45,774 nt of DNA, from positions 1-45,774 of the forward strand of contig JAFWDM010000127.1 in NCBI GenBank assembly GCA_017513005.1. Direction: 5' to 3'. Below are positions 3,792-32,525 of the stretch, piece by piece. This DNA is from Lachnospiraceae bacterium. GTDB taxonomy: Bacteria > Bacillota > Clostridia > Lachnospirales > Lachnospiraceae. The position numbers and the translations under genes were made by a program. Under the pieces are notes generated by a model. The model worked only from the letters and a program-made list of their open reading frames with translations, was not told where the DNA came from and did not search any database. Every line of letters starts with the position of its first letter. Position 1 is the stretch's first letter.

Positions 3792-4661
3792 TTATTTCAG
3801 GGCAACATTGTTGGAAATATAGTAGGAGTATCCTCTCTTCTTGCAGTAGTTGATGATCTCCTTGCGCATGGCGGAACTCTTTGTGTACTCCAGAAGGGCG
3901 ATCGACCGGCCGGCCTTTTTGACCTTCTTGAGGTAGGCTTCGTAGTAGGTGCGGTCTGACTTGAGCTGGCGGGCGAACTTGTTGGAGTTGTAGCCCGTGA
4001 TCCTGGTGAGGACCTCCTCCTGCATGACGCCGTCGATGATCTTGGCCTTGCCCATGCTGATGATCTTGGAGACGAAGACATCGCCGCCGTTGATGATGAT
4101 CGGGATCTTCTTGTTGTGGCAGCGGGAGAGAATGGAGATCAGGCCGTTCAGGATAGAGGTGCGGTGGAACTCATAGTAGACGTCGGTGTTGTCTACCCAG
4201 AGGCCGTCGATCCCCTTTTTGCGGAGATTTGCGACCAGCTCGTTCACGACGAAATCCTGCCAGGCCTTCTTGGAGGTGTCGACCCATCTCTCGTCCGGCC
4301 AGTTGTCGTACTTGCCAAGCGTGTACTTTTTGAAGCGCTTGTAGTAGGAACGATAGGTCGCGATCGATCCGATACTCAGATAGCTGTAGACCTTGCGGCC
4401 GCCGGATTTGAGCTTTTTGATCTCAGCCTTGGTATAATTCTGGCCGTCGATGACGATCGACTTGTAGTTTTTGACTTTGGAAGTGTTTCCGTGCAGGGTC
4501 GTTCCGATAAAGACGCCCCAGGTCGTGGTCTTGGCGGCAGCTTCCGCGGGGACCTCAGTGACCGGGACGATGGCCGCGAAGCTGAGCACGGCGGCAAGGA
4601 CCAGAGCGGCCAGACGCTTTGTGAGCGGGGAATTATGTGTCAGTTTTCTGCTTTCTTTCAA
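3792..4661 (-). CDS. Secreted GH114-like (TM1410 family) glycoside hydrolase
   Basis: A secreted 289-aa TIM-barrel protein of the GH114/TM1410 group, whose characterised members are endo-alpha-1,4-polygalactosaminidases acting on galactosamine-rich exopolysaccharide. After a positively charged start, a hydrophobic signal segment lies at about 16-32 with likely cleavage near AEAAA (39-43). The body shows SYLSIGSIATYRSYY (93-107) and IDGLWVDNTDVYYEF, where Asp152 and Asp157 fit the conserved acidic strand-end residues. The start is TTG at 4661-4659, with AAAGGAGG 7 nt upstream; the ATG at 4736 would put 25 unlikely residues before the signal peptide. A c-di-GMP-I riboswitch and a terminator lie upstream on the same strand. 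Activity on galactosaminogalactan or on a wall glycan is inferred from family only. Confidence 0.85.
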   Translation of the reverse strand: MKESRKLTHNSPLTKRLAALVLAAVLSFAAIVPVTEVPAEAAAKTTTWGVFIGTTLHGNTSKVKNYKSIVIDGQNYTKAEIKKLKSGGRKVYSYLSIGSIATYRSYYKRFKKYTLGKYDNWPDERWVDTSKKAWQDFVVNELVANLRKKGIDGLWVDNTDVYYEFHRTSILNGLISILSRCHNKKIPIIINGGDVFVSKIISMGKAKIIDGVMQEEVLTRITGYNSNKFARQLKSDRTYYEAYLKKVKKAGRSIALLEYTKSSAMRKEIINYCKKRGYSYYISNNVALK

Positions 4662-4770
4662 ATGAATCCCTCCTTTACAAAGTCTATACAAATAAAACTG
4701 AAACCTGATCGGTATACGTGATTTATGTGCTGACAATTATTGTATCATTTCGCAAATAAAAAGTATAGAT

Positions 4771-4802
4771 AAAAAAAGCACCGGCCCTGCCGGACCGGTG
4801 CT
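4771..4802 (-). terminator. Intrinsic terminator in the leader of the GH114 gene
   Basis: Read on the - strand this is a stem AGCACCGG / CCGGTGCT, GC-rich, followed by seven T. It lies about 110 nt before the gene start and about 200 nt after the c-di-GMP-I aptamer, so it can act as the expression platform or as the end of a short riboswitch RNA. A second hairpin (TCCGGT/ACCGGA, plus-strand region 4866-4881) lies between and shares CCGG tracts that could compete with it; that is inference. Confidence 0.8.
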
Positions 4803-5001
4803 CTGTACAGTCTGATTAGATGCTACTCGTTCGATTACTTTCGTCGTTTTCCTTTCTTTTTATTTCCGGTCTTTACCGGATCTTGTATCTTTCGCACTTT
4901 TAGACTGTATCGGGGAAGCGCTTTTTCAGGAAGTGTTCATGGTCTGGCTTCCGCTTTTTCAGGATTCTGCCGGAGTCTTCGGCTCGAACTGTTTCCTCAG
5001 T

Positions 5002-5080
5002 CTAAGAATGCAGCTGGCTGGCATTTTACAGCCCCTTTAGCTTTGCGTCACAGGCTTTCGCCTGCTTTGCCACAGATTCT
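5002..5080 (-). ncRNA. c-di-GMP-I riboswitch aptamer (GEMM-I), copy 1
   Basis: The - strand reads GGCAAAGC, a stem closed by a GAAA tetraloop (GCAGGC GAAA GCCTGT), then GACGCAAAGCTAAAGGGGC and a second hairpin ATGCCAGCCAGCTGCAT. These are the conserved GEMM-I elements: the CAAA strand, GNRA tetraloop, ACGCAAAGC core and the P3 hairpin. It matches copy 2 with a single mismatch over 82 bp. It heads the leader of the GH114-like gene and lies just downstream of the NlpC/P60-like gene. The stretch 5081-5167 upstream of it is AT-rich, with three TCTGGAATTCTTT-like repeats and possible -10 boxes. Confidence 0.93.
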
Positions 5081-5167
5081 TTCTGGAATATTTTATTAGG
5101 AATATTTTATCTGAAATCTTTATCTGGAATTCTTTTCTGGAATTCTTTTCTGGAATGATACTCTCTG

Positions 5168-5938
5168 TCAGCGCCTTGTCATGACGTAGGTGCCGCCGTT
5201 TTTCGCTTCGCTGCGGGTGATGACGCGTCCCCAGTGGATCGAGCGGTTGTAGTTGCCTTCTGCTACGATGAAGTTGTTTCCGACGACCTTCATGACCATC
5301 ACGGAGTGGGTGTTGTTTTTGATGCGGAGGATGTCGCCTACCTTGACGTTGCCGAAGTTGGTGTGTCTTCTTGCAGGGGCTCTGCCGAAGGCCGCGTCGC
5401 TGAGAAGGAATGCAAAACCGGAGCATCCGAAGCCGCCGGAGAAGATGCCGCCCTTCCAGCCGTAGTAGTTGCTGTTGGTCCAGGGTCTGCCTTCGAAGTA
5501 GGCGGAGCGCTTTGCATACATTTTGCGGAAGATGACCGCGTCCTGCGCATTCATGCCGGAGGTGCTGAGCTTCATCGTGGCTGCGGAGCCGCCCGCTGCG
5601 CCGGAAGAGGTCTTTGCGGTGACTTTCACTGTGCAGGAATAGGTCTTTTTGCTGGTCTTCGCCGTGATCTCGGCGGTGCCGGCCTTTTTCGCTGTGACCT
5701 TGCCGGCCGTGCTGACCGTTGCGACCGAGGGAGCGGAGCTCTTCCAGGTGACCTTGCCTGCGTTCTTTACGTTGAGGGCTTTGGTGCTGCCCTGCTGGAT
5801 GGTGATGGTTCCCTTGACGTTTGTCGTGACCGTTGCCGCCGCGTGGACGGGCATAGCCGAGGCAATCGCGATCAGGGTGATGACGATGATGAGGGAAATG
5901 ATGCCGATGTGCCTTTTGTTCATTTTCCTGGTCTTCAT
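5168..5938 (-). CDS. Secreted BIG2 plus NlpC/P60-like cysteine peptidase
   Basis: A secreted 256-aa protein likely to cut peptidoglycan stem peptides or another amide. A signal peptide covers about 1-34 (hydrophobic 11-29, cleavage near VHA). One bacterial Ig-like BIG2 domain follows at about 36-108 (VTWKSSAPSVATVSTAGKVT, then KKAGTAEITAK). After an SSGAAGGSA linker, the C-terminal domain carries GGFGCSGFAF with predicted nucleophile Cys172 and NNTHSVMVMKV with His211, the order expected of NlpC/P60 or CHAP-like folds. The start at 5938 has AAAGGAG 8-9 nt upstream. A 235-nt leader contains a c-di-GMP-I aptamer immediately followed by a terminator, so expression should respond to c-di-GMP. The exact peptidase subfamily is not certain. 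Confidence 0.85.
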   Translation of the reverse strand: MKTRKMNKRHIGIISLIIVITLIAIASAMPVHAAATVTTNVKGTITIQQGSTKALNVKNAGKVTWKSSAPSVATVSTAGKVTAKKAGTAEITAKTSKKTYSCTVKVTAKTSSGAAGGSAATMKLSTSGMNAQDAVIFRKMYAKRSAYFEGRPWTNSNYYGWKGGIFSGGFGCSGFAFLLSDAAFGRAPARRHTNFGNVKVGDILRIKNNTHSVMVMKVVGNNFIVAEGNYNRSIHWGRVITRSEAKNGGTYVMTRR

Positions 5939-6122
5939 GTTCGCTTCTCCTTTCTCTTGCGTTGTGCCCGGCTAAAGGTTCAGCGATTCTTGTTTTGACC
6001 AGGATGTCTGTTCTCCGGTTCCGGATGCTTTGGACGTTGGCGGCTCTGTCGTGTACAGGTCTGCCCTTGTGTCCTTGCGCCGGTCGGCGTCTGGAGGGAT
6101 GAGATCCGGTTCGGGTCGTCTG

Positions 6123-6166
6123 AAAAAAGAAAACCCGGATCCGAATACCATTCTTCGAAACCAGGT
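6123..6166 (-). terminator. Riboswitch expression-platform terminator, copy 2
   Basis: On the - strand ACCTGGTTTCGAA pairs with TTCGGATCCGGGT over 12 of 13 positions (including two G-T pairs), around an 8-nt loop, and is followed by TTTCTTTTTT. It begins within about 10 nt of the end of the c-di-GMP-I aptamer, the usual layout of a transcription-attenuating riboswitch. Confidence 0.85.
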
Positions 6167-6175
6167 GTCCCAAGT

Positions 6176-6254
6176 CTTAGAATGCAGCTGGCTGGCATTT
6201 TACAGCCCCTTTAGCTTTGCGTCACAGGCTTTCGCCTGCTTTGCCACAGATTCT
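6176..6254 (-). ncRNA. c-di-GMP-I riboswitch aptamer (GEMM-I), copy 2
   Basis: Same 79-82 nt sequence as copy 1, differing at one base (position 6178 against 5004). It contains the GAAA-capped P2 stem, the GACGCAAAGC core and the P3 hairpin. It stands at the head of the leader of the BIG2/NlpC-like peptidase gene and is followed directly by a terminator. The promoter should lie just above 6254 on the - strand; an AT-rich run (CATAAACAATATAG) is there, but no convincing -35 was seen. Confidence 0.93.
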
Positions 6255-6423
6255 ATATTGTTTATGAAGTTTTCCGCTCCGGGGAGGTCGTTCTTTTTCG
6301 TTCCCCTTTGCTTGATTCTACTCTAACAGAAGAGTCACAAAAAAGCAAGACATGTGCGCAAGGTAGTCTGAAATTTGACGCTTGCATTGATTTCTGAAGG
6401 ATGTGCATATGCGGATACCGTGG

Positions 6424-6519: not shown

Positions 6520-7620
6520 ATGCTCTGGAAAAAAATCCTTTTTATCTATAATCCTGTGGCGGGTCGCACCCAGATCCGGGAATATCTGCCGGACATCATC
6601 GACACCCTGTCTGCTGCGGATTTTAAAGTGCTCTGTTATCCCACCAGGGGGCAGGGGGACGCCAGGCGGATCGTGCGCGAGCGCCAGGAGGACTATCTGT
6701 ATGTCGTCTGCGCCGGCGGGGACGGGACGCTGGACGAGGTCGTCAGCGGCATGATGGAAAATCCGGACAAGCCCTTTGTGCCGATCGGATATATTCCCGC
6801 GGGAACGACCAATGATTTTGCAACGAGCCTGCACATTCCCACAGATATGCGGCAGGCGGCACAGATCATCGCGCAGGGCCGGACCTTCCGCTGCGACCTT
6901 GGCCTCTTCAATGAGACGGACTATTTTACCTACGTGGCGGCCTTCGGGATCTTTACGGGCACCTCTTACCAGACGCCCCAGGAACTGAAAAACCAGATCG
7001 GCCACCTGGCCTATATTTTTCAGGGCGTATCGGAGCTGGGCAATATGCGGGCCTACAACATGCACGTGGAAGCGGAGGGGCTGGAGGAACCGGCGCAGGA
7101 AAAACACAGTGCCGCGGCAATGGCGCATCCGGAAACAGGGGAGTATCCCGCGGCAGAGGGCCAGGTGCTGTCGTTTGCCGGGGCAGGGGAGAAGGAGAAA
7201 GGTCCCCATGCGGAAAGCCGGGAAACCGGGCGCTCGTCCGTCCCGGCAGATCGGAGAAAACGAGTGATCGACGGTGAATTCGCACTCGGGATGATCACGA
7301 ATTCCCGATCGATCGGAGGATTTGCAAATATCACGGGCAGCCGGGTCGACCTGCAAGACGGCCTGTTCGAAGTTACGCTGGTCCGCATGCCGAAGAACCC
7401 GCTGGAACTGAGCGAGATCCTCTTTTCCATCGGGAACCCGCAGGCATCGACCTCGATGATCTATAACTTCAAGGCAGCCCGCGTGACACTGGAGTGTGAT
7501 GAACAGGTGGCGTGGACCCGGGACGGGGAGTATGCCGGGGCCCATCGCCGTGTATCGCTGGAAAACCACAGCCGCCAGCTGCGGATCCTGGTGCCGGAGG
7601 AACACGCCGACAGCTTCTAA
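6520..7620 (+). CDS. Lipid/diacylglycerol kinase family protein (DAGK_cat, YegS-like)
   Basis: A 366-aa cytoplasmic lipid kinase of the DAGK catalytic family. The nucleotide-binding signature GGDGT is at 66-70 (VVCAGGDGTLDEVV), preceded by FIYNPVAGR (8-16) and followed by PIGYIPAGTTNDFA (88-101), all typical. The C-terminal beta domain resumes at about 250 with DGEFALGMITNSRSIGGFANI. Residues about 185-245 are a Glu/Ala/Pro-rich insert absent from most members, which run near 300 aa. GGAG 7 nt before the ATG supports the start. It could recycle diacylglycerol released when phosphoglycerol is transferred from phosphatidylglycerol, which would suit the GroP-transferase-like gene further right; that link is inference. 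Confidence 0.88.
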   Translation: MLWKKILFIYNPVAGRTQIREYLPDIIDTLSAADFKVLCYPTRGQGDARRIVRERQEDYLYVVCAGGDGTLDEVVSGMMENPDKPFVPIGYIPAGTTNDFATSLHIPTDMRQAAQIIAQGRTFRCDLGLFNETDYFTYVAAFGIFTGTSYQTPQELKNQIGHLAYIFQGVSELGNMRAYNMHVEAEGLEEPAQEKHSAAAMAHPETGEYPAAEGQVLSFAGAGEKEKGPHAESRETGRSSVPADRRKRVIDGEFALGMITNSRSIGGFANITGSRVDLQDGLFEVTLVRMPKNPLELSEILFSIGNPQASTSMIYNFKAARVTLECDEQVAWTRDGEYAGAHRRVSLENHSRQLRILVPEEHADSF

Positions 7621-7773: not shown

Positions 7774-10700
7774 ATGAAGAGACGAAAAACAAACTTGAAT
7801 GGAAACGGTGATAAAAAGACAGAGTTCCGGCTTGGTAAAAACACACAGGCGAGGCTCTTTTTCGGAGCATACTTCGGGGTCGTGTTTCTGGTGTTGGTCT
7901 GGAATCTGTTTCACTGTACCTCCGTGTCCTGGCTGAACAGGGAGGCTTTTTTGTCTGCGGATGCGGGTCCGGAAACGAACGGAGACGGTGATCTGCAGAC
8001 GGAGCAGACTGTATCTGAAGGAGAAAAGGCGGGCACAGGCGGCGGAACCGCCGTTCTCCTTGACGGGGAGCCGCTGCTGCTGTACAGTCCTTCGGATCCC
8101 GCCGCCTCAAAGGAGGCCGGACGGAAAGCCATTCCGGCCGGGGCGAAGCTGCGGGGGGCAGCGGTCTACGGATACGAGAACAGCAGGGGGCTTCGTTTTA
8201 CTAAGGAGACGGTCAGGGCGGAAGTCCTGGACGTCTCGACGAAGGAAGTGCTGGGCAGCGGGACCCTGTTTTTAAGAAATCAGTCCCCCTATCCGAATGA
8301 TGAGACCTCTGTCTATATTGCTTTTGAACATCCTGTGGAAGATACGGCCGGAAAAGATCTGGAGCTGTGCATAAGGTCTGCGGGCCTGGTACGGAACGGG
8401 ATCTCCTTCGCAGGCGGTACCGCCGGCGAAGACGGAAAAGTCCCTGCCGCCGGGCTGTACTATGAAAAGAAGACCTGGAACCCGCTGAGTGCCTTTTTGT
8501 ACTTTCTGGCAGAGATGGCAGTGGGGCTGGGAGGCCTGCTGGTGTACGGGGAGCGGATCCTTCCTCTGTTTGGAAAGAAGAGGAGCCGGCAGGCTGCGCC
8601 GGCCGGGTCTTCCTGCCGCACATGGATCGCGGGATCCCTGTGCGGGAGAGACCTCCTGCCGCTGGCGGCTGTTCTGGTCCTCTGCCTTGTCTGCATGGGA
8701 ACTGTCTACATGCGGGTTGTCCGCAAGACCGCGGATTCCATGGATGCGGAGGTGCTCGTGCGCCTGGAGGGCGCAGAAGAGAGCGTCACCCTGCAGCCGG
8801 GCCGGTCTGTCAGGCAGAGGATCATGCCCGGACAGGATGGTCTGGCCGGCTTCGGAATCTGTCTCTCAGACGGGGAGGACCCAACAGACGGACCGGTTTT
8901 GGGCTGGAAACTCCTGAATGCGGACGGAACCGGGACCCTCGGGGAGGGGAAGGCGGTTTTGTCAGATCTCCGGAAAGTGAAGACGACGCTCGAGAAGGAC
9001 ATAGAAGATGAAGAGATCCTGCAGGCAGCGGGCCGGTGCCTGCTCCTGCCGCTGGATTCCGTGATCCCTGCATCATCCGGACAGGGGTATCTGCTGGAAC
9101 TGACGGCAGAACCGGCGGAGGAAAGAGACAGCGAAGAAGCCGTCGGAAACGGGAACGGGAAAAGCGCAGGAGGATCCATCAGCCTGCTGGCGTCTGCGGA
9201 TACGAACAGCGGACTGCAGATCCCGGACCGGGAAGGCGCAGGAGAGGGCAGAGACCTGGAAGTGTGCCTGCTGGCGGCTTACAGGAACAACAGATTCATA
9301 AAGGGCTTTTTTGCCCGGGTCTGTGTCCTTCTTCTGGTCTCGCTGGCAGGAATATACGTCCTGTGTCTGTCCGCAAAAGAAGGTGCCGGAAAAGAAGGGC
9401 CCGCAAAAGAAGGGCCCGCAAAAGAAGGTGCCGGGAAAGAGGGATCCGGGGCAGGTGTTGCCACAGTCTATCTCGTCAGCGCCCTGTGCATGGGCCTCAT
9501 ATTCAGCTTTATGACACCGGTCTACACGATCTCCGATGAGAGGACACATATAGATTCTGTCTATCAACTGTCAAACCGCCTGCTGGGCATCACGGATATT
9601 CCGGGACCGCGGAGAATATACAAGCGCGCCTGTGATATTGACGCGGCAATTGCGAACACGATGCCCGTGAAGATGGCGAGATACCGGGCGGTATCGGAGA
9701 ACCTGTTCGGGGCGGCGGAGGCCGAGGTACAGGAGACAGAGGCTGCGGCACAGGATACAGAGGCTGCGGCACAGGAGGCAGAGCCTGCAGCACAGGAGAC
9801 AGAGGTCCTGCAGGCTGCCGGTGCAGAGACAGAGGTCCTGCAGGCAGCCGGAGCAGGGACGGAGGGAACGGATGCCGGTGCAGGGGGAAGTGTGCCCGCT
9901 GCCGGTAAGGAGCTCACTGCGGCTTACGCCCGCAGCGCGCTGGACAACGTCCCACTGCTGTGTTATCTCCCGGCTGCGATCGGTTTTTCGATCGCCAGGC
10001 TGGCGGGGCGAAACATGATCACCATGATCATGTTTGCCCGCTGGGCCAACCTTCTGGCATGTGCCCTGGTGATGTATTTTGCCATAAAGCACCTGCCCCG
10101 GGGCGGCGCCTGCCTGGCGGTCATCGGCCTTTTTCCCAAAACGCTCCAGCAGACGGCCTCCTGTTCCTACGACGGTCTGATCATTGCAGGTACATTTCTC
10201 TTCATTGCCTTCTGCGCGGCGGCCGCCGGGGACAGTCTCCTTCCCTGTGCGTCCGGGACAGAAGCGCGCAGGACAGAACCACACAGGACAGAACCACACA
10301 GGACAGAACCACACAGGACCTGTATCGTTGACCTCATGGTCCTTGTCCTCGCCGGCTTCTTTGTCGCCTCCTGTAAAGGCGGCGTCTATCTGCCCGTGCT
10401 GGGGCTGGCGTTCCTGCTCCCCTTTTCGGGAAGGGGGGACAGGAGATTTTCGAAAAAGATCCGGACAGGGCTGGCGGCTTCTGTCCTGGGCGGGGCTGCT
10501 TTTCTCTTTTTCGGGAAATTTGTCGTCCGGCTCATCAGCATTTTTTCCAGACAGTCGGGATCTGCTTCGATCGCAGCCGGAACTAAGACCCTGTACACGC
10601 TGTCGGATTTTGCGGGGGCACCCGCAAAACTTGTGCGCATCTATTACAATACCCTGGATATTCGCGGAGACGGCCTGCTGGGAGAGCTGGTGGGGAAAAA

Positions 10701-11199
10701 CCTCTGCCAGAAGTGGGTGTTTGTATTTGCTTTTTTGTTCATTGCCTTTCTGGGCATCCTGGAGGAAGGGAACAGAAAAGGGGAAAGCGGCAGATCGGAG
10801 AGCAGGAAACCGGAGTACCGCAAGGCGGAAAACGACAGGATCGGAACAGCGGATCCCGGGACGGCTCCGGTACGGGAAAACAGGACCCGGAAGGGAGGGG
10901 AAACCGGCGGGACCGGGCTGCGCCTGTCTGTCAGGCTCTGGCTGGTGTTTCTGACTGCCGCCAGTACCGCTCTGGTCTTTCTCTCCATGCTGCTCGCCTT
11001 TACGGCAAAAGGGGGTGCCTATGTGGACGGACTGCAGGGGCGGTATTTCCTGCCCGTCGTGCCCCTGCCTTTTATGGCTGCCCAGACCGTAAGGTTCAGG
11101 AGAGAGGGGATGAAGGACCAATGGCTGGTCTATGCGGCGGATGTGCTTCTGGCAGTGACCTTCAGCCAGATCTTCCTGGCGTATCTGGGAAGTATTTAA
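7774..11199 (+). CDS. DUF2142 family polytopic membrane protein, paralogue 1
   Basis: An 1141-aa multi-spanning protein of the DUF2142 family, suspected GT-C-like glycosyltransferases or polymerases of surface glycans. After an N-terminal helix (about 27-48) comes a soluble beta-rich region, helices near 238-260 and 293-313, a second soluble region, then the multi-helix core. The core opens with ISDERTHIDSVYQLSNRL near residue 588, where the acidic DE matches the position of GT-C catalytic acids. IPGPRRIYKRACDID and LQGRYFLPVVPLPFMA also recur in paralogue 3. The protein is swollen by in-frame repeats: AKEG-type (about 534-558), ETEAAAQ-type (656-696), and EPHRT (about 833-849). A charged insert lies near 1000-1045. 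The ATG at 7774 lacks a clear SD and lies in a repeat, so the start is uncertain. The enzymatic role is inferred. Confidence 0.8.
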   Translation: MKRRKTNLNGNGDKKTEFRLGKNTQARLFFGAYFGVVFLVLVWNLFHCTSVSWLNREAFLSADAGPETNGDGDLQTEQTVSEGEKAGTGGGTAVLLDGEPLLLYSPSDPAASKEAGRKAIPAGAKLRGAAVYGYENSRGLRFTKETVRAEVLDVSTKEVLGSGTLFLRNQSPYPNDETSVYIAFEHPVEDTAGKDLELCIRSAGLVRNGISFAGGTAGEDGKVPAAGLYYEKKTWNPLSAFLYFLAEMAVGLGGLLVYGERILPLFGKKRSRQAAPAGSSCRTWIAGSLCGRDLLPLAAVLVLCLVCMGTVYMRVVRKTADSMDAEVLVRLEGAEESVTLQPGRSVRQRIMPGQDGLAGFGICLSDGEDPTDGPVLGWKLLNADGTGTLGEGKAVLSDLRKVKTTLEKDIEDEEILQAAGRCLLLPLDSVIPASSGQGYLLELTAEPAEERDSEEAVGNGNGKSAGGSISLLASADTNSGLQIPDREGAGEGRDLEVCLLAAYRNNRFIKGFFARVCVLLLVSLAGIYVLCLSAKEGAGKEGPAKEGPAKEGAGKEGSGAGVATVYLVSALCMGLIFSFMTPVYTISDERTHIDSVYQLSNRLLGITDIPGPRRIYKRACDIDAAIANTMPVKMARYRAVSENLFGAAEAEVQETEAAAQDTEAAAQEAEPAAQETEVLQAAGAETEVLQAAGAGTEGTDAGAGGSVPAAGKELTAAYARSALDNVPLLCYLPAAIGFSIARLAGRNMITMIMFARWANLLACALVMYFAIKHLPRGGACLAVIGLFPKTLQQTASCSYDGLIIAGTFLFIAFCAAAAGDSLLPCASGTEARRTEPHRTEPHRTEPHRTCIVDLMVLVLAGFFVASCKGGVYLPVLGLAFLLPFSGRGDRRFSKKIRTGLAASVLGGAAFLFFGKFVVRLISIFSRQSGSASIAAGTKTLYTLSDFAGAPAKLVRIYYNTLDIRGDGLLGELVGKNLCQKWVFVFAFLFIAFLGILEEGNRKGESGRSESRKPEYRKAENDRIGTADPGTAPVRENRTRKGGETGGTGLRLSVRLWLVFLTAASTALVFLSMLLAFTAKGGAYVDGLQGRYFLPVVPLPFMAAQTVRFRREGMKDQWLVYAADVLLAVTFSQIFLAYLGSI
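9373..9447 (+). repeat. Five 15-bp in-frame minisatellite units in DUF2142-1
   Basis: Five units of GCAAAAGAAGGGCCC type run head to tail and encode AKEGA, GKEGP, AKEGP, AKEGA, GKEGS. They lie in the loop just before the conserved core. The unit is a multiple of three, so copy changes lengthen the loop without frameshift. Confidence 0.88.
9739..9861 (+). repeat. 21-bp and 30-bp in-frame repeats in DUF2142-1
   Basis: Three 21-bp units (9739-9759, 9760-9780, 9781-9801) encode ETEAAAQ-like heptads. They pass into two 30-bp units (9802-9831, 9832-9861) encoding a Val-Leu-Gln-Ala-Ala-Gly decapeptide. Paralogue 3 has nothing at this place except a short loop. Confidence 0.85.
10269..10320 (+). repeat. 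Perfect 15-bp triplicate in DUF2142-1
   Basis: Three identical copies of CAGGACAGAACCACA (10269-10283, 10284-10298, 10299-10313) and a partial fourth encode repeated RTEPH in a loop between membrane helices. Perfect identity suggests recent expansion. Confidence 0.92.
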
Positions 11200-15870: not shown

Positions 15871-18363
15871 ATGCATAGGTCAGGAAAAAAAAGCAATGTG
15901 TTCGGGCATGTCATTTGTTTAGTGGCTGCAGTAGTTATGTCTGCGGCAGCCTGGATGAATACCAGGACGTTCCTGCCTGCGGAAATGGACTCCTATTACT
16001 ATGATGATTACCAGATGCCGGAGCAACTTGTTTCTGTTTACAAACCGACTGAAAAAGGCAAAAAGAAGTCCTCAATCGGGAAGATCCGCAAAGCTGACGA
16101 CATTAAGGAATCGCAGATGTATCTGGATTTCCGGGAGGGAAAAGAACAGAAATTTCTGGGAGTCATAGTCAAACTCAAAGATTCTTTTCCCTATGATATG
16201 AAGTGTACGCTCTATTATCAGAACCGGGCAGGAAGGCTGGATCATAACTGCAAGACAACGACAAAGCTTCCCCAGGGAGAAAAGACGATCTATTTTTCGC
16301 TGCCGGAAGACAGATACTATGATATGACAGGGATTCGAGTCGATTTCGAGGAGGATTATGCGAAGTATCTGGAAGAAGTGCTGGTCTGTAAAAATCAGAT
16401 AGTAGGAAAATACAGGGCACAGGAACAGGATTCGGAGCACTCTATACTGATATGTTTTCTTTCAGTCCTGATCCTGATGGAGTTTATTCGTTTTCTGAGT
16501 CCGGAAATCCGCAGAGCTTTTCCGGGCTTTCAAACAAGGATTAAAAAATGGGGAAAGTATTTCTTGCTTTCCGTTGTTGTGGCAGTCAATACAGCTGTTT
16601 TTGGGGAGCTGATTTTTCAGTTTTCCGCGAAATCCTATGGGCGATTTCAGGCAGGACTTCTGGTTATAGCTGCCGTGGCTGTTGCTATAGAATGTGGACT
16701 TTTACTTCAAAAGCTTCCGGAGCTGGAAGATAAGTCGGTCGACCGTCATCCACCGGCTCTGACCTGGAGAGAACTTCTGCCAAAGCTGCTGTACTGGCTT
16801 TTACTGACAGGACTATGTGTGCAGATCTATCTGGCATTCAGAGATGGTTATTATGAAAAGTGGGCAGAGCTGGAGGGGGCTTATATCTGGATTCCTTTTA
16901 CAGTTTTGCTGATTCAGGTTCTCCCGCTTGGGCTTTTATATCAAAAGTATATCCTGATTCGGGAAGAAAACCGGATTTCGTTTGACAAAGTGTTTCTTGT
17001 TCTGTTTTTTGCCATTGGCCTTTGCTATATTCTGCTGTTTCTCCCTTTTGTGTCAGCGGATGAGCCGGATCATTTTTTGTCTGCCTACAGGGTTTCAAAT
17101 CTGTTTATGGGGCAGATTGGGCAGCTGGGTGATGCCAGGCTTCTGATGCGGCTGGAGGACTATCTCTTTTTTACAAACAGGAAGGAAACACTGTCAGCAG
17201 ATTATTATAAACAGATCGCGGAGAATCTGCATTATTTTCGACAGGAAGCTGGATATGTAATTGCAGATGGACCAATGGTGACAAACGCATTATTTTCCTA
17301 TCTCCCGGCGGGGGCAGGGATTGCGATTGCCAGGCTTTTACGGTTGAGTGATGTAATGACATTCTGGGCAGGGCGGTTCGGAAATCTTCTCTTCTGTACT
17401 GCAATGCTGGGGAAGGTGATGAAGAAGATCCCGTTTGGAGAGACAGCGGTTTTTGCCATGGCTATGTTCCCGATGGCGCTTCATACAGTAGGATCCTTCT
17501 CTTATGATGGTCCTACGCTCTGCTTTGTGCTTCTTTTTGTGGCTCATGTGATGCAGATGGCCTACAGTGAAGAGCGGATCAGGAACAGAGACTATCTGTT
17601 CTGCGTATTTTACGGAATTTTGTTGGCACCTTCGAAGCTGGTCTATCTGCCTCTTTTAATGCTGGTATATCTGGTTCCGTCGAAAACACTTTCCTCGAGC
17701 GAGAGAAGAGCATTCTGGAGAAAATGTCTAGTGGTTGTGGCAGGAATGCTTGCTGTCATTCTGATTATGTCCGCAGTGAACCTGCTGGGGGCCGATTCCG
17801 CAATCGGGAAAATGGTCCGGGATAATGCATCGGTGCATCTGGTCAAGTGGGTAAAGCATGAAGAAGGATATACGATTTCGTGGATCCTGTATCATCCTTT
17901 GAAGTATCTGGTCATGTGCTTGCGTACGTTTGTGAAAATGGCGGATTACTTTCTTTTTACGATGGCAGGCACACAGCTGGGCTGGCTCAATATTTATCTT
18001 CCGTATGCGCCTGCGGCCATCAGTCTTTTCGTGTTTGTTCTGGCAGTAAACATTCGGGAAAAAGACGATTCGGAGAGGACACCGGATATAGAGGAAAAAA
18101 GCTGGATCTTTTTGCTGTGTATAGGATCCGCCATGATCATCTTTCTGGCGATGGCTTTGGACTGGACGCCGCTGTCCGACAACTATATCTCCGGAATCCA
18201 GGGCAGGTATTTTCTGCCTCTTTTGGGACCTGCGATCTGGATGCTCAGGACACCAATGATACGGGTGCAGAGTTCCATGCGGCGTTATATCGTTTTTTAT
18301 GAGGGTGCAATCAATATCCTGCTTCTGGTACATGTGTTTACGCGTTATATGATCAGCACCTGA
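15871..18363 (+). CDS. DUF2142 family polytopic membrane protein, paralogue 2
   Basis: An 830-aa DUF2142 protein, the most compact and most divergent of the three here. An N-terminal helix at about 11-31 is followed by a soluble region to about 185, helices near 190-210 and 225-300, and then the core. The core opens with FLPFVSADEPDHFLSAYRVSNLF, placing the DE acid pair near 397, the point equivalent to DERTH in the other two. The family ending IQGRYFLPLLGPAIWML is present. It lacks the low-complexity inserts of paralogue 1. AGGAAGG lies just before the ATG. Base composition is lower in GC than paralogues 1 and 3, and the next two genes share this. A role as GT-C-like transferase or polymerase is inferred from fold and context. 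Confidence 0.82.
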   Translation: MHRSGKKSNVFGHVICLVAAVVMSAAAWMNTRTFLPAEMDSYYYDDYQMPEQLVSVYKPTEKGKKKSSIGKIRKADDIKESQMYLDFREGKEQKFLGVIVKLKDSFPYDMKCTLYYQNRAGRLDHNCKTTTKLPQGEKTIYFSLPEDRYYDMTGIRVDFEEDYAKYLEEVLVCKNQIVGKYRAQEQDSEHSILICFLSVLILMEFIRFLSPEIRRAFPGFQTRIKKWGKYFLLSVVVAVNTAVFGELIFQFSAKSYGRFQAGLLVIAAVAVAIECGLLLQKLPELEDKSVDRHPPALTWRELLPKLLYWLLLTGLCVQIYLAFRDGYYEKWAELEGAYIWIPFTVLLIQVLPLGLLYQKYILIREENRISFDKVFLVLFFAIGLCYILLFLPFVSADEPDHFLSAYRVSNLFMGQIGQLGDARLLMRLEDYLFFTNRKETLSADYYKQIAENLHYFRQEAGYVIADGPMVTNALFSYLPAGAGIAIARLLRLSDVMTFWAGRFGNLLFCTAMLGKVMKKIPFGETAVFAMAMFPMALHTVGSFSYDGPTLCFVLLFVAHVMQMAYSEERIRNRDYLFCVFYGILLAPSKLVYLPLLMLVYLVPSKTLSSSERRAFWRKCLVVVAGMLAVILIMSAVNLLGADSAIGKMVRDNASVHLVKWVKHEEGYTISWILYHPLKYLVMCLRTFVKMADYFLFTMAGTQLGWLNIYLPYAPAAISLFVFVLAVNIREKDDSERTPDIEEKSWIFLLCIGSAMIIFLAMALDWTPLSDNYISGIQGRYFLPLLGPAIWMLRTPMIRVQSSMRRYIVFYEGAINILLLVHVFTRYMIST

Positions 18364-29612: not shown

Positions 29613-32525
29613 ATGGATCGATCAGAAAACAGATATGTCCCTGGGAAGAGGAGCAGGAGAGGCGCCGGGCACAGGTTGGGAACCGGCGGGCAGCTTTTCG
29701 GTATCATCCGGAAAATGGACCCTTTTTTCCGGATCTATTATATTGTCATCATAGTTCTTTTTCTGGTCCAGCTTCCTTTTGCAGATTCTCAGTCCTTTTC
29801 CTCCTGGCCTTTCGGGGGAACAGGGGACGCGGTCTGTGAGATCAATGATCACAAGGACGCGGAGATGCTGGTGACAGTGGAAGAGAACCATCTGAGCGGC
29901 GCGGCAGTTTATGGATTCCTGAATGAGCTGAATCTGCTTTTCACAAATGAAAAGCTGATCATGACAGTCACAGAGGCGGATACCGGGGAATTGTTGACCG
30001 AGTCTGTTTTCAACGTCGCCGATCAGCCGCAGAGCGCAGCGGATGACAATGGCATGTACTTTGCTTTTAAGGATGAGATTCCGAAGGGGACTCATGTCAG
30101 AATCCGGCTGCATTCACAGGGGTTTTTCAAGCGTGGGGTCTTTTTTGAACTCTCGGACGAAGCCCTTCATGACAACGTGACGATTCTGGACGGGGATGTC
30201 TCGGAGCAGACCCTGTGCCTGAGCTTCAAACACAAGAAACACAGTCTTAACCTGCTCAGACCCCTGCTCTTCCTTCTCATCGAAGCAGCCCTCGGCTTTG
30301 CCCTGATGCTGCTCCACAGGAAGTTCAGGTTCCCCATCCGGTCCATGCATGCCGGGAGAACCGGGACAGATTCGGTCCGGAAGCCGGTTCCGATTCGGAG
30401 GATCGCTCTTGTGACAGCTGTCACTGCGCTATGTATGGTCCTTCTGGCGGAATTTGCCTACTGGCGCGCGGTGAGCCGTGTGAGTGCGCGCTATGATGCG
30501 GATATGGTCTGTATGGATGACTATGACCTGAGCAGTCGGATCGCAGTGGCAGACGATACGGTGGTTGAACAGGTGATCCGGACGTGTAAGAGAAACTTCT
30601 GTGGGATCGGGCTCGCTGTTCAGAACAATTCGGACGGGGAGGAGCCATCCAGCCAGTCCTTTTATGTTTCGGCGAAAGAAAAGGAACGTCTGAAAAATGT
30701 CTCCGACACAGTCAAGTATGTGAAGGGGTCGCTGCTGGTACAGGTATATGACAATGACACCGATGAGCTGCTGGTGGACAGGGAATATGAAGCCGGTACC
30801 CTGATGGACGTCACGAGAGTGATCGCGCCGGGTGTAAAATCAACACAGGTCAGAGACAATAAGGAAAAGTTCGTCTGGCTGGGTTTCGGCAGAAACATTG
30901 CTGATTCCAAAGGCAGGGAATACAGGATCGTGATCCGGGGGAGAGATACGGGAGAGTACGGGATCCGTCTGTCTACCTCCGGCCGTACCAACACAGTCCT
31001 TAACAGGGACGGGGAGATCAGGAAGAGTTCACTCTGTATGATCACGTTTTTCGATGTGAATAAGGGAATCAGCTTCTGGTATCTGATTATAGTCGCAGGG
31101 ATGATGATCGTGGTTCTGGGGGTCGGCGTTCTGATCCGTGTCCGCAATATCCGGATCGAATATGTCTTTCTGGTGAGCGCGATCAGCATGGGGTTTCTCT
31201 TCAGTCTGATCGTACCGCCCTACTGTGTGCCCGATGAGCGGACGCATGTCGATACGATCTACAGAATGTCCAATGAGTTTCTCGGGATCCGGGAGATCCC
31301 CGGACCGAACAGGATCTACAAGCGGGCCTGTGATGTGGATTCCGGGATCAGAAACACAATGTCTCTGGCCCCCTATATGTATTGTGAGATGTCGGAGCAG
31401 CTTTTCGAAGGGGCCGGCTGGGATACGCAGCTGGTTCCGGCGTACGCGAGAAATGCCATCGATAATGTCACTGTGCTCAACTATCTGCCTGCGGCGGCCG
31501 GGTTTACGTGCGCAAGGCTTCTGAGGCGGAATCTTCTGACGATGATCATGATGGCGAGATGGTTCAATGTCATTGCTGTCTCCTGGCTGATGTTTATCGC
31601 CGTGCGCAAAGCGCCTTTCGGCAAGGGGGTCTTCGCGCTCATCGGGCTGCTGCCGAAGATGCTGAACCAGAATGTGTCCTGCTCCTATGACGGGATGATC
31701 ATCGCGGCTGTCTTTTTGTTTCTGGCCTATGTGCTGCATATTTTTTATGAGGACAACGTCAGTGTAGGAGACCTGCTCCTGGTCGTTGTATGCGGGTGGT
31801 TTCTGGCAGCCAACAAGGGGGGCGCGTATCTGCCGCTCACCGCTTTTTTACTGCTCCTTCCCTTCGTCCGCAGAAAAAACAGAAAGATGTGGAGGGAGAT
31901 CGCGGGCTATACCCTGCTCTCCATGCTGCTGGTTTTTTCGTTCAAATTTATCGTGCGGGTCTCGGGGATCCTCGTCAGGAGTTCCGGCACAGCCGTGAAG
32001 GCGGAGGGGAAGGCCACGCTCTATACCCTGTCGGATTTCTTTACAGCCCCCGGGAGTCTGTTCCGTGTCTTTGAAAGCACTGCGGTCATAAAGGGGCAGA
32101 ACCTGCTGGGGGATGTGGTCGGGATCAATATTGCCCAGCAGCAGGTAAATGCTCCCTGGCTGATCATCTTTGCCTTCCTCATCCTCCTGCTGATCGCTGC
32201 ACTGAACAGGGAGGACGGGCGAGTCTGGTTCTCCCCGCGGCAGAAAGGATACATCGCCCTGCTCACGGCAGCAGGAGTGGGTCTGATCTCGGTGTCTATG
32301 CTGCTTTCCTGGACTACCGTCGGGAGCGAGACGATCGAAGGTCTGCAGGGAAGATACTTTCTTCCCTATGTGATCCTGCCTTTTTTATGCCTGCAGAACA
32401 GAGTGATCGCGAGAAAGACAACGGAGGACCAGGGCCTGCTCTGGTTCGCGGATGTGCTCTTGTTTGTGACGTTCTGCAATCTGATCATATCGACCTTTTC
32501 CTGTTCGGTGATCATGATGGATTGA
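29613..32525 (+). CDS. DUF2142 family polytopic membrane protein, paralogue 3
   Basis: A 970-aa DUF2142 protein, the closest relative of paralogue 1. The core opens with VPDERTHVDTIYRMSNEFLG near residue 541, and GPNRIYKRACDVD and ETIEGLQGRYFLPYVILPF also match paralogue 1 closely. None of the three repeat inserts of paralogue 1 is present. N-terminal helix at about 35-52, a soluble beta-rich region, helices near 208-230 and 260-285, then a second soluble region before the multi-helix core. GAGG lies 8 nt before ATG 29613; a later ATG at 29715 is possible but has a poorer SD. It is divergent from RgpF-like copy 2 and lies just before the dTDP-rhamnose genes. Confidence 0.82.
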   Translation: MDRSENRYVPGKRSRRGAGHRLGTGGQLFGIIRKMDPFFRIYYIVIIVLFLVQLPFADSQSFSSWPFGGTGDAVCEINDHKDAEMLVTVEENHLSGAAVYGFLNELNLLFTNEKLIMTVTEADTGELLTESVFNVADQPQSAADDNGMYFAFKDEIPKGTHVRIRLHSQGFFKRGVFFELSDEALHDNVTILDGDVSEQTLCLSFKHKKHSLNLLRPLLFLLIEAALGFALMLLHRKFRFPIRSMHAGRTGTDSVRKPVPIRRIALVTAVTALCMVLLAEFAYWRAVSRVSARYDADMVCMDDYDLSSRIAVADDTVVEQVIRTCKRNFCGIGLAVQNNSDGEEPSSQSFYVSAKEKERLKNVSDTVKYVKGSLLVQVYDNDTDELLVDREYEAGTLMDVTRVIAPGVKSTQVRDNKEKFVWLGFGRNIADSKGREYRIVIRGRDTGEYGIRLSTSGRTNTVLNRDGEIRKSSLCMITFFDVNKGISFWYLIIVAGMMIVVLGVGVLIRVRNIRIEYVFLVSAISMGFLFSLIVPPYCVPDERTHVDTIYRMSNEFLGIREIPGPNRIYKRACDVDSGIRNTMSLAPYMYCEMSEQLFEGAGWDTQLVPAYARNAIDNVTVLNYLPAAAGFTCARLLRRNLLTMIMMARWFNVIAVSWLMFIAVRKAPFGKGVFALIGLLPKMLNQNVSCSYDGMIIAAVFLFLAYVLHIFYEDNVSVGDLLLVVVCGWFLAANKGGAYLPLTAFLLLLPFVRRKNRKMWREIAGYTLLSMLLVFSFKFIVRVSGILVRSSGTAVKAEGKATLYTLSDFFTAPGSLFRVFESTAVIKGQNLLGDVVGINIAQQQVNAPWLIIFAFLILLLIAALNREDGRVWFSPRQKGYIALLTAAGVGLISVSMLLSWTTVGSETIEGLQGRYFLPYVILPFLCLQNRVIARKTTEDQGLLWFADVLLFVTFCNLIISTFSCSVIMMD

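Follow-up and report, generated by a model that had tools for sequence, protein, structure and literature searches.

Twin c-di-GMP-I riboswitch aptamers on either side of a gene for an exported peptidase-like protein in a Lachnospiraceae bacterium

It is already known that class I c-di-GMP riboswitches can precede genes for exported proteins, that class I regions have been duplicated and that switches can be neighbours, and in C. difficile 11 of 12 c-di-GMP-I riboswitches are under negative control (PMC3649979). For the C. difficile OFF switch Cd1 (Cdi1_3), the available text describes an antiterminator of only transient stability, which abolishes the binding ability of the aptamer and competes with the terminator (PMC9262584). 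Tandem class I aptamers have been surveyed as well; the accessible part of that survey gives 347 doublets and 12 triplets, where pairs were required to have no open reading frame between them and a gap of at most 300 nt (PMC9481103).

Here we describe a locus in a stretch of 45,774 nucleotides from a Lachnospiraceae bacterium (assembly GCA_017513005.1, contig JAFWDM010000127.1), hereafter the window. It is an instance of the c-di-GMP-I class with an odd layout, a gene standing between two copies of the aptamer, RS_B and RS_A (Table 1). Our reading, in which we have somewhat better than even confidence, is that RS_B is a transcriptional OFF switch of the exported Big_2/NlpC-P60-like gene, that RS_A is a second copy and that the GH114 gene runs on its own promoter.

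Table 1. Positions of the features of the locus in the window
Feature	Position	Strand	Basis
Exported GH114-family glycoside hydrolase (signal sequence by eye), TTG start	3792..4664	-	PF03537 1.5e-24; 6oj1 1.1e-9
Probable proximal GH114 promoter, TATACT-17-TACAAT, extended -10 TGATACAAT (4747-4739)	4739..4767	-	motif match
Strong intrinsic terminator closing the RS_A segment, 13 bp, T tract	4775..4804	-	scan; -24.5 kcal/mol, z -5.89
RS_A platform, long helix (5011-4998 with 4908-4894) that rivals aptamer P1	4890..5012	-	folding, shuffles
RS_A, second c-di-GMP-I aptamer, 86 nt past the peptidase-like stop codon	5006..5081	-	RF01051 53.8 bits
Sigma-70-like promoter match ATGACA-16-TATCAT, 10/12, at the end of the peptidase-like gene	5155..5182	-	consensus scan only
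Exported 256-aa protein: signal sequence (by eye), Big_2, C-terminal NlpC/P60-like peptidase-fold domain	5168..5938	-	
RS_B terminator, 12-bp stem (one mismatch) followed by UUUUCUUUUUU	6123..6166	-	folding, shuffles
RS_B, c-di-GMP-I (GEMM-I) aptamer, 5' of the peptidase-like gene	6180..6255	-	RF01051 54.2 bits
Divergent diacylglycerol-kinase-domain gene	6520..7620	+	PF00781 1e-32

The aptamers and the protein encoded between them

An Rfam covariance search bears out the GEMM-I call of the earlier note: both aptamers score above the curated RF01051 cut-off of 35 bits and cover the model at full length (positions 1-87 of 87). They lie in direct repeats (6173-6254 and 4999-5080) that are identical at 81 of 82 bases, just as that note had described 82-bp twins differing at one base, and the similarity ends abruptly at both edges. 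No further c-di-GMP-I match was found in the 2.68-Mb genome, a draft assembly of 130 contigs. This genome also has eight GGDEF matches (seven above the cut-off) and two EAL matches, domains that should enable it to make and break c-di-GMP, and RS_A and RS_B are predicted to bind it. Both aptamers carry a G at the alignment position that we take to be ligand contact 20.

The peptidase-like domain of the exported protein has a papain-like fold, with a cysteine at the start of a helix and a histidine at the start of a strand. The protein had been proposed to be a BIG2 plus NlpC/P60-like peptidase. The Big_2 domain and the NlpC/P60-like fold stand, whereas neither the NlpC/P60 nor the CHAP profile matched the 256-aa protein at E<=1. 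Both families are likewise absent among the ten listed for 33 aligned peptidase-fold domains at E<=0.1; one of the 33 matched Amidase_6 (0.0053). The protein is a probable secreted cell-wall enzyme.

The peptidase-fold domain (window 5171-5590) belongs to a family with members in 55 other genome records (L180-L234), mostly labelled Clostridia. When 32 of these relatives were aligned with the window's domain, the cysteine, the histidine and WGR were invariant in all 33. The family is without a name in Pfam (33 members searched) or NCBIfam (window protein only). All 55 relatives were scanned for GEMM-I, and none was found near them. Among the genus genomes in a 99-genome search, matches over most of the domain were confined to the bacterium's own genome and G324.

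A predicted switch ahead of the peptidase-like gene

Between RS_B and the peptidase-like gene, folding predicts a terminator of -15.3 kcal/mol (2 of 200 shuffled sequences were equally good), which was not among the matches listed by the consensus terminator scan. An antiterminator can form through base-pairing of the terminator loop, AGAAUG (6154-6149), and 5' arm with the 3' P1 strand (CAUUCU). In a transcript ending at 6140, where the 3' arm of the terminator is absent, the probability of this antiterminator is 0.82 with P1 free and 0.00 with P1 locked, and it is 0.41 with the end at 6135. For transcript ends from 6130 to 6114 the terminator dominates at equilibrium (0.99) with P1 free or locked, and from end 6110 onward the antiterminator comes back if P1 is free (0.80-0.94). 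Since the equilibrium favours the terminator in either state of P1, an OFF model for RS_B must be kinetic. The competitor helix was matched or beaten in 78 of 500 shuffled downstream stretches, so that the antiterminator alone is statistically unremarkable; the 68-nt stretch that includes both terminator and antiterminator has a z of -1.66 (13 of 200 shuffles).

According to this model, the antiterminator would capture the 3' strand of P1 when c-di-GMP is absent, and the peptidase-like gene would be read. When c-di-GMP is present, P1 would hold, the terminator at 6166-6123 would form and the gene would be off. We infer the OFF polarity from the fit with the kinetic logic of Cd1 and with the negative control prevailing in C. 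difficile. Taken together, the leader anatomy, in which a terminator meets a competing helix that borrows from P1, supports control of the peptidase-like gene by c-di-GMP through RS_B, as the earlier note had claimed.

The GH114 gene and the second aptamer

The neighbouring hydrolase scores 87 bits with the GH114 profile PF03537 (cut-off 27), in keeping with its previous designation as a GH114-like glycosidase; it is a family member by profile, and hydrolysis of an alpha-1,4-galactosamine polymer is a putative activity. Between RS_A and this gene, the terminator at 4804-4775 is predicted with a probability of at least 0.998 whether P1 is free or locked, and hence no antiterminator was found for it. 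The pattern TGNTANNAT of the extended -10 is present within 200 nt upstream in 10 of 11 GH114 regions (the window and ten congener loci), its distance to the start codon ranging from 45 to 179 nt. This count is flattered by the choice of the pattern post hoc, after the sequences had been inspected. In 200 shuffles of the GH114 upstream regions, the corresponding count averaged 0.91 and was three at most.

We compared the gene order with that of congeners. In six of them (G306, G307, G308, G323, G325 and G334), GH114 orthologues of 59-83% identity face the same kinase gene directly, with a gap of 281 to about 900 bp versus 1,856 bp in the window. No match to the peptidase-like protein was observed in ten congener GH114 loci, five of which retain the NUDIX gene at the other flank of GH114, and GEMM-I was not found in any of the 12 further genomes of the genus that have a GH114 match. 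Because GH114 faces the kinase gene in congeners without the peptidase gene or a riboswitch, the block from 4775 to ~6500 looks like an insertion between the GH114 promoter and the kinase gene that brought its own terminator. Insertion here rather than loss in the relatives is the simplest reading of the gene order, and we infer it on that ground. The non-coding stretches of the block had no match in any compared locus, and the edges of the insertion are thus unplaced.

The GH114 gene would therefore, in our preferred reading, run from its own promoter at 4767-4739, insulated by the terminator of the block; this terminator, the promoter motif and the gene order in relatives suggest that it is probably independent of RS_A. 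RS_A would be a second copy behind the peptidase-like gene, within the same inserted block, and its transcript would end at 4804-4775. A very small c-di-GMP regulon seems to have been gained in this lineage. The target of a riboswitch can be misjudged from gene order alone: here the next gene seems to have retained a promoter of its own, downstream of a terminator.

GH114 matches occur in 13 of 62 genomes of the genus and in 29 of 299 genomes of a family sample, the own genome being counted in both. No GEMM-I was found at the 28 family GH114 loci scanned (three of them below the family cut-off), at three own-genome loci with other GH114 genes or, with a second model, at 22 of the 27 foreign GH114 loci of the genus. 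Both control aptamers (L078 and L086) were recovered with the second model, and neither had been used in building it. Two more GH114 genes of the own genome (L177, contig C90) lie near repeated ATPase-like genes, as judged by eye, and one of them is a 65%-identical paralogue of the window GH114 without a riboswitch.

The aptamer itself was found in 4 of 62 genomes of the genus, including the own genome, and in none of the other 58; in the family sample it was found in 110 of 299 genomes under stricter filters, by which weak matches were lost. We examined 110 family loci, of roughly 150 among the matches listed. A same-strand frame lies downstream at 105 of them (up to four frames each, 199 in total), and Pfam was run on 100 of the 105, frames shorter than 100 aa or with long masked runs being left out. 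PAS, CAP, GGDEF, transglutaminase-like and solute-binding proteins are among the 25 commonest of the 120 families downstream of these 100 loci. None of the 105 loci matches GH114 or the peptidase domain, and the idea of a remodelling or dispersal pair, put forward in the earlier note, is therefore without comparative support in this sample. The peptidase-like protein matches a single family c-di-GMP-I locus (L015), through its Big_2 part only.

Other aptamers of the survey were inspected by eye. Those of L018, L117 and L126 (G131, contigs C29 and C43) precede small proteins that resemble immunity proteins, L018 and L117 being clearly alike, and those of L079 (G297) and L121 (G004) precede small, mutually similar proteins of helix-turn-helix appearance. 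The G344 aptamer precedes a gene for an EAL-like protein and a glycosyltransferase-like gene, tandem aptamers in G317 and G331 lie ahead of a metalloprotease-like secreted protein, and a G331 aptamer also lies ahead of a partly masked secreted protein. In these three genomes (L055, L057 and L058 in G317 and G331; L056 in G344), the position that presumably corresponds to ligand contact 20 is an A and not a G. A G20A variant of the c-di-GMP-I riboswitch goes with a cGAMP-type ligand in the excerpts available to us, hinting at a cGAMP-type or mixed ligand for these aptamers.

A different account holds that both enzymes are controlled by c-di-GMP: RS_A would modulate read-through at 4804-4775, adding to basal transcription from a proximal promoter, and GH114 would trim a Pel-type polymer when c-di-GMP falls. 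We consider this unlikely. GH114 is indeed the next downstream gene on the same strand, and the RS_A platform has a structured competing helix, but the terminator is predicted in both P1 states. In C. difficile, 496 bp separate the flgB promoter from the start codon (PMC3649979), and Bc1 of B. thuringiensis, as far as the accessible text goes, combines a long c-di-GMP-I platform with strong terminators (PMC11218506); here, however, an extended -10 motif lies between terminator and gene, as in riboswitch-free GH114 genes. The GH114 family includes a solved polygalactosaminidase and the genome has PelF and PelG homologues, yet GEMM-I is absent at 50 other GH114 loci and the three own-genome loci. 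Of the two riboswitch-led enzymes claimed at the outset, the peptidase-like protein behind RS_B is thus retained on its platform anatomy, and GH114 behind RS_A is not, a terminator and a promoter motif lying between them. The claim of paired control including GH114 is likewise not supported, given the orthologues in the same place in six congeners and the recurrent extended -10, which in the window lies downstream of the RS_A terminator.

The Pel homologues are located outside the window, on contig C38 (L178 and L179), with matches to PelG (418 bits), PelF DUF3492 (275 bits) and a DUF2194 deacetylase-like protein (480 bits). The cluster embeds a further GH114 gene; its PelD-like and PelE-like proteins were called by position, size and look only. 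No GGDEF family was detected in the PelD-like protein, and no GGDEF match on contig C38. A GH114 gene run by a riboswitch would restore a c-di-GMP link to Pel, an idea against which the terminator and the promoter count. A probable Gram-positive Pel-type exopolysaccharide locus coexists with GGDEF and EAL domains in this genome. In the window itself, three DUF2142 membrane proteins (7774-11199, 15871-18363 and 29613-32525) are encoded in or near one surface-polysaccharide locus, which also includes RgpF, RmlD-type sugar genes, UDP-galactopyranose mutase and CotH.

The RS_A platform (5012-4890) folds with -33.2 kcal/mol (z -3.05), a value reached by none of 200 shuffles, and 8 of 500 shuffles gave a helix that competes with P1 equally well. 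Since the platform is more structured than chance, RS_A may have an output. With P1 free, the helix 5011-4998/4908-4894 has a probability of 0.96-0.98. With P1 locked, the values are 0.61-0.79 for ends 4890-4820, 0.00-0.15 for ends 4805-4765 and 0.67 at 4740. In this locked state, once 4823-4807 has been made, segment 4908-4894 pairs there, beside the terminator (0.81-0.96, ends 4805 to 4765), and this pairing varies in longer transcripts (0.16 at 4740, 0.98 at 4700, 0.35 at 4650).

We consider it as unlikely as the control of GH114 by RS_A that RS_A is a relic of duplication, its former target gene lost, and that it persists because it is recent or recombines with RS_B. The near-identity of the copies with their abrupt ends fits this, as do the four c-di-GMP-I regions of C. 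difficile that are 88-93% alike, ascribed to duplication (PMC3649979), and the family aptamer L086, which likewise has no same-strand frame behind it. However, a 123-nt platform that folds better than 200 of 200 shuffles would be unexpected in decaying DNA. The L086 aptamer (G179, 317-393) is 92% like the window's over 62 nt, and the gene on the opposite strand resembles a serine recombinase by eye.

We give still less credence to an RS_A that acts from behind, either within the 3' region of the peptidase mRNA or as a separate c-di-GMP-sensing RNA of ~370 nt, altering RNA stability or 3'-end formation. The aptamer is intact, the platform structure exceeds chance and the promoter match at 5182-5155 could start a separate RS_A transcript. 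The consensus scan listed no terminator on the - strand between the peptidase-like stop codon and RS_A, but this silence is weak evidence, because the same scan missed the RS_B terminator. No case of exactly this kind was found in the literature compared, and the two 3' riboswitches named in the available text of PMC9943018 work in antisense; if RS_A does work behind the gene, its position would be an unusual one for a riboswitch. The segment just 5' of RS_A (5082-5167) is AT-rich (GC 0.28) and, by eye, has imperfect ATTCCAGAAAAGA-like repeats of ~13 bp. Least credible of all is a single mRNA bracketed by the same aptamer, in which RS_B gates the start and RS_A, a 3' riboswitch on the sense strand, influences the end or the stability; the unit would have moved beside GH114 with its 82-bp direct repeats. 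The layout of the locus itself is not named in the accessible parts of the open-licence literature on GH114 with c-di-GMP or on Lachnospiraceae c-di-GMP riboswitches.

Comparison with described systems

Pel locus architectures have been described (PMC7112168, of which parts were available). The C38 cluster resembles the class IV PelD loci of S. intermedius in having PelF, PelG, a deacetylase-like protein and a PelD-like protein without GGDEF; in the available text, that class IV PelD is said not to bind c-di-GMP and S. intermedius to lack cyclases, whereas the genome studied here has GGDEF and EAL domains (PMC12345266).

With Cd1, which precedes flgB, RS_B shares the aptamer class and the contest of antiterminator and terminator, as far as the accessible account goes (PMC9262584). 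The targets differ, and the polarity of RS_B is deduced.

CD2830 is the protease PPEP-1/Zmp1. Its gene, with Cdi1_12, stands beside CD2831 much as in the window: the gene for an exported protein is on a c-di-GMP-I switch and its neighbour lies behind a second c-di-GMP switch (PMC3649979). In that pair two switch classes are combined, CD2831 having a c-di-GMP-II switch, whereas the window has one class twice, and the second copy is seemingly insulated from the neighbour.

Like Bc1 of B. thuringiensis, RS_A is a c-di-GMP-I aptamer with a long platform and strong termination; a separate promoter between terminators and gene, as we propose for GH114, is not mentioned for Bc1 in the available text (PMC11218506). 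RS_A and RS_B resemble the tandem c-di-GMP-I riboswitches in that two class I aptamers lie close together (PMC9481103, from the part accessible). Unlike the surveyed tandems, they have a gene between them, and each has a platform of its own.
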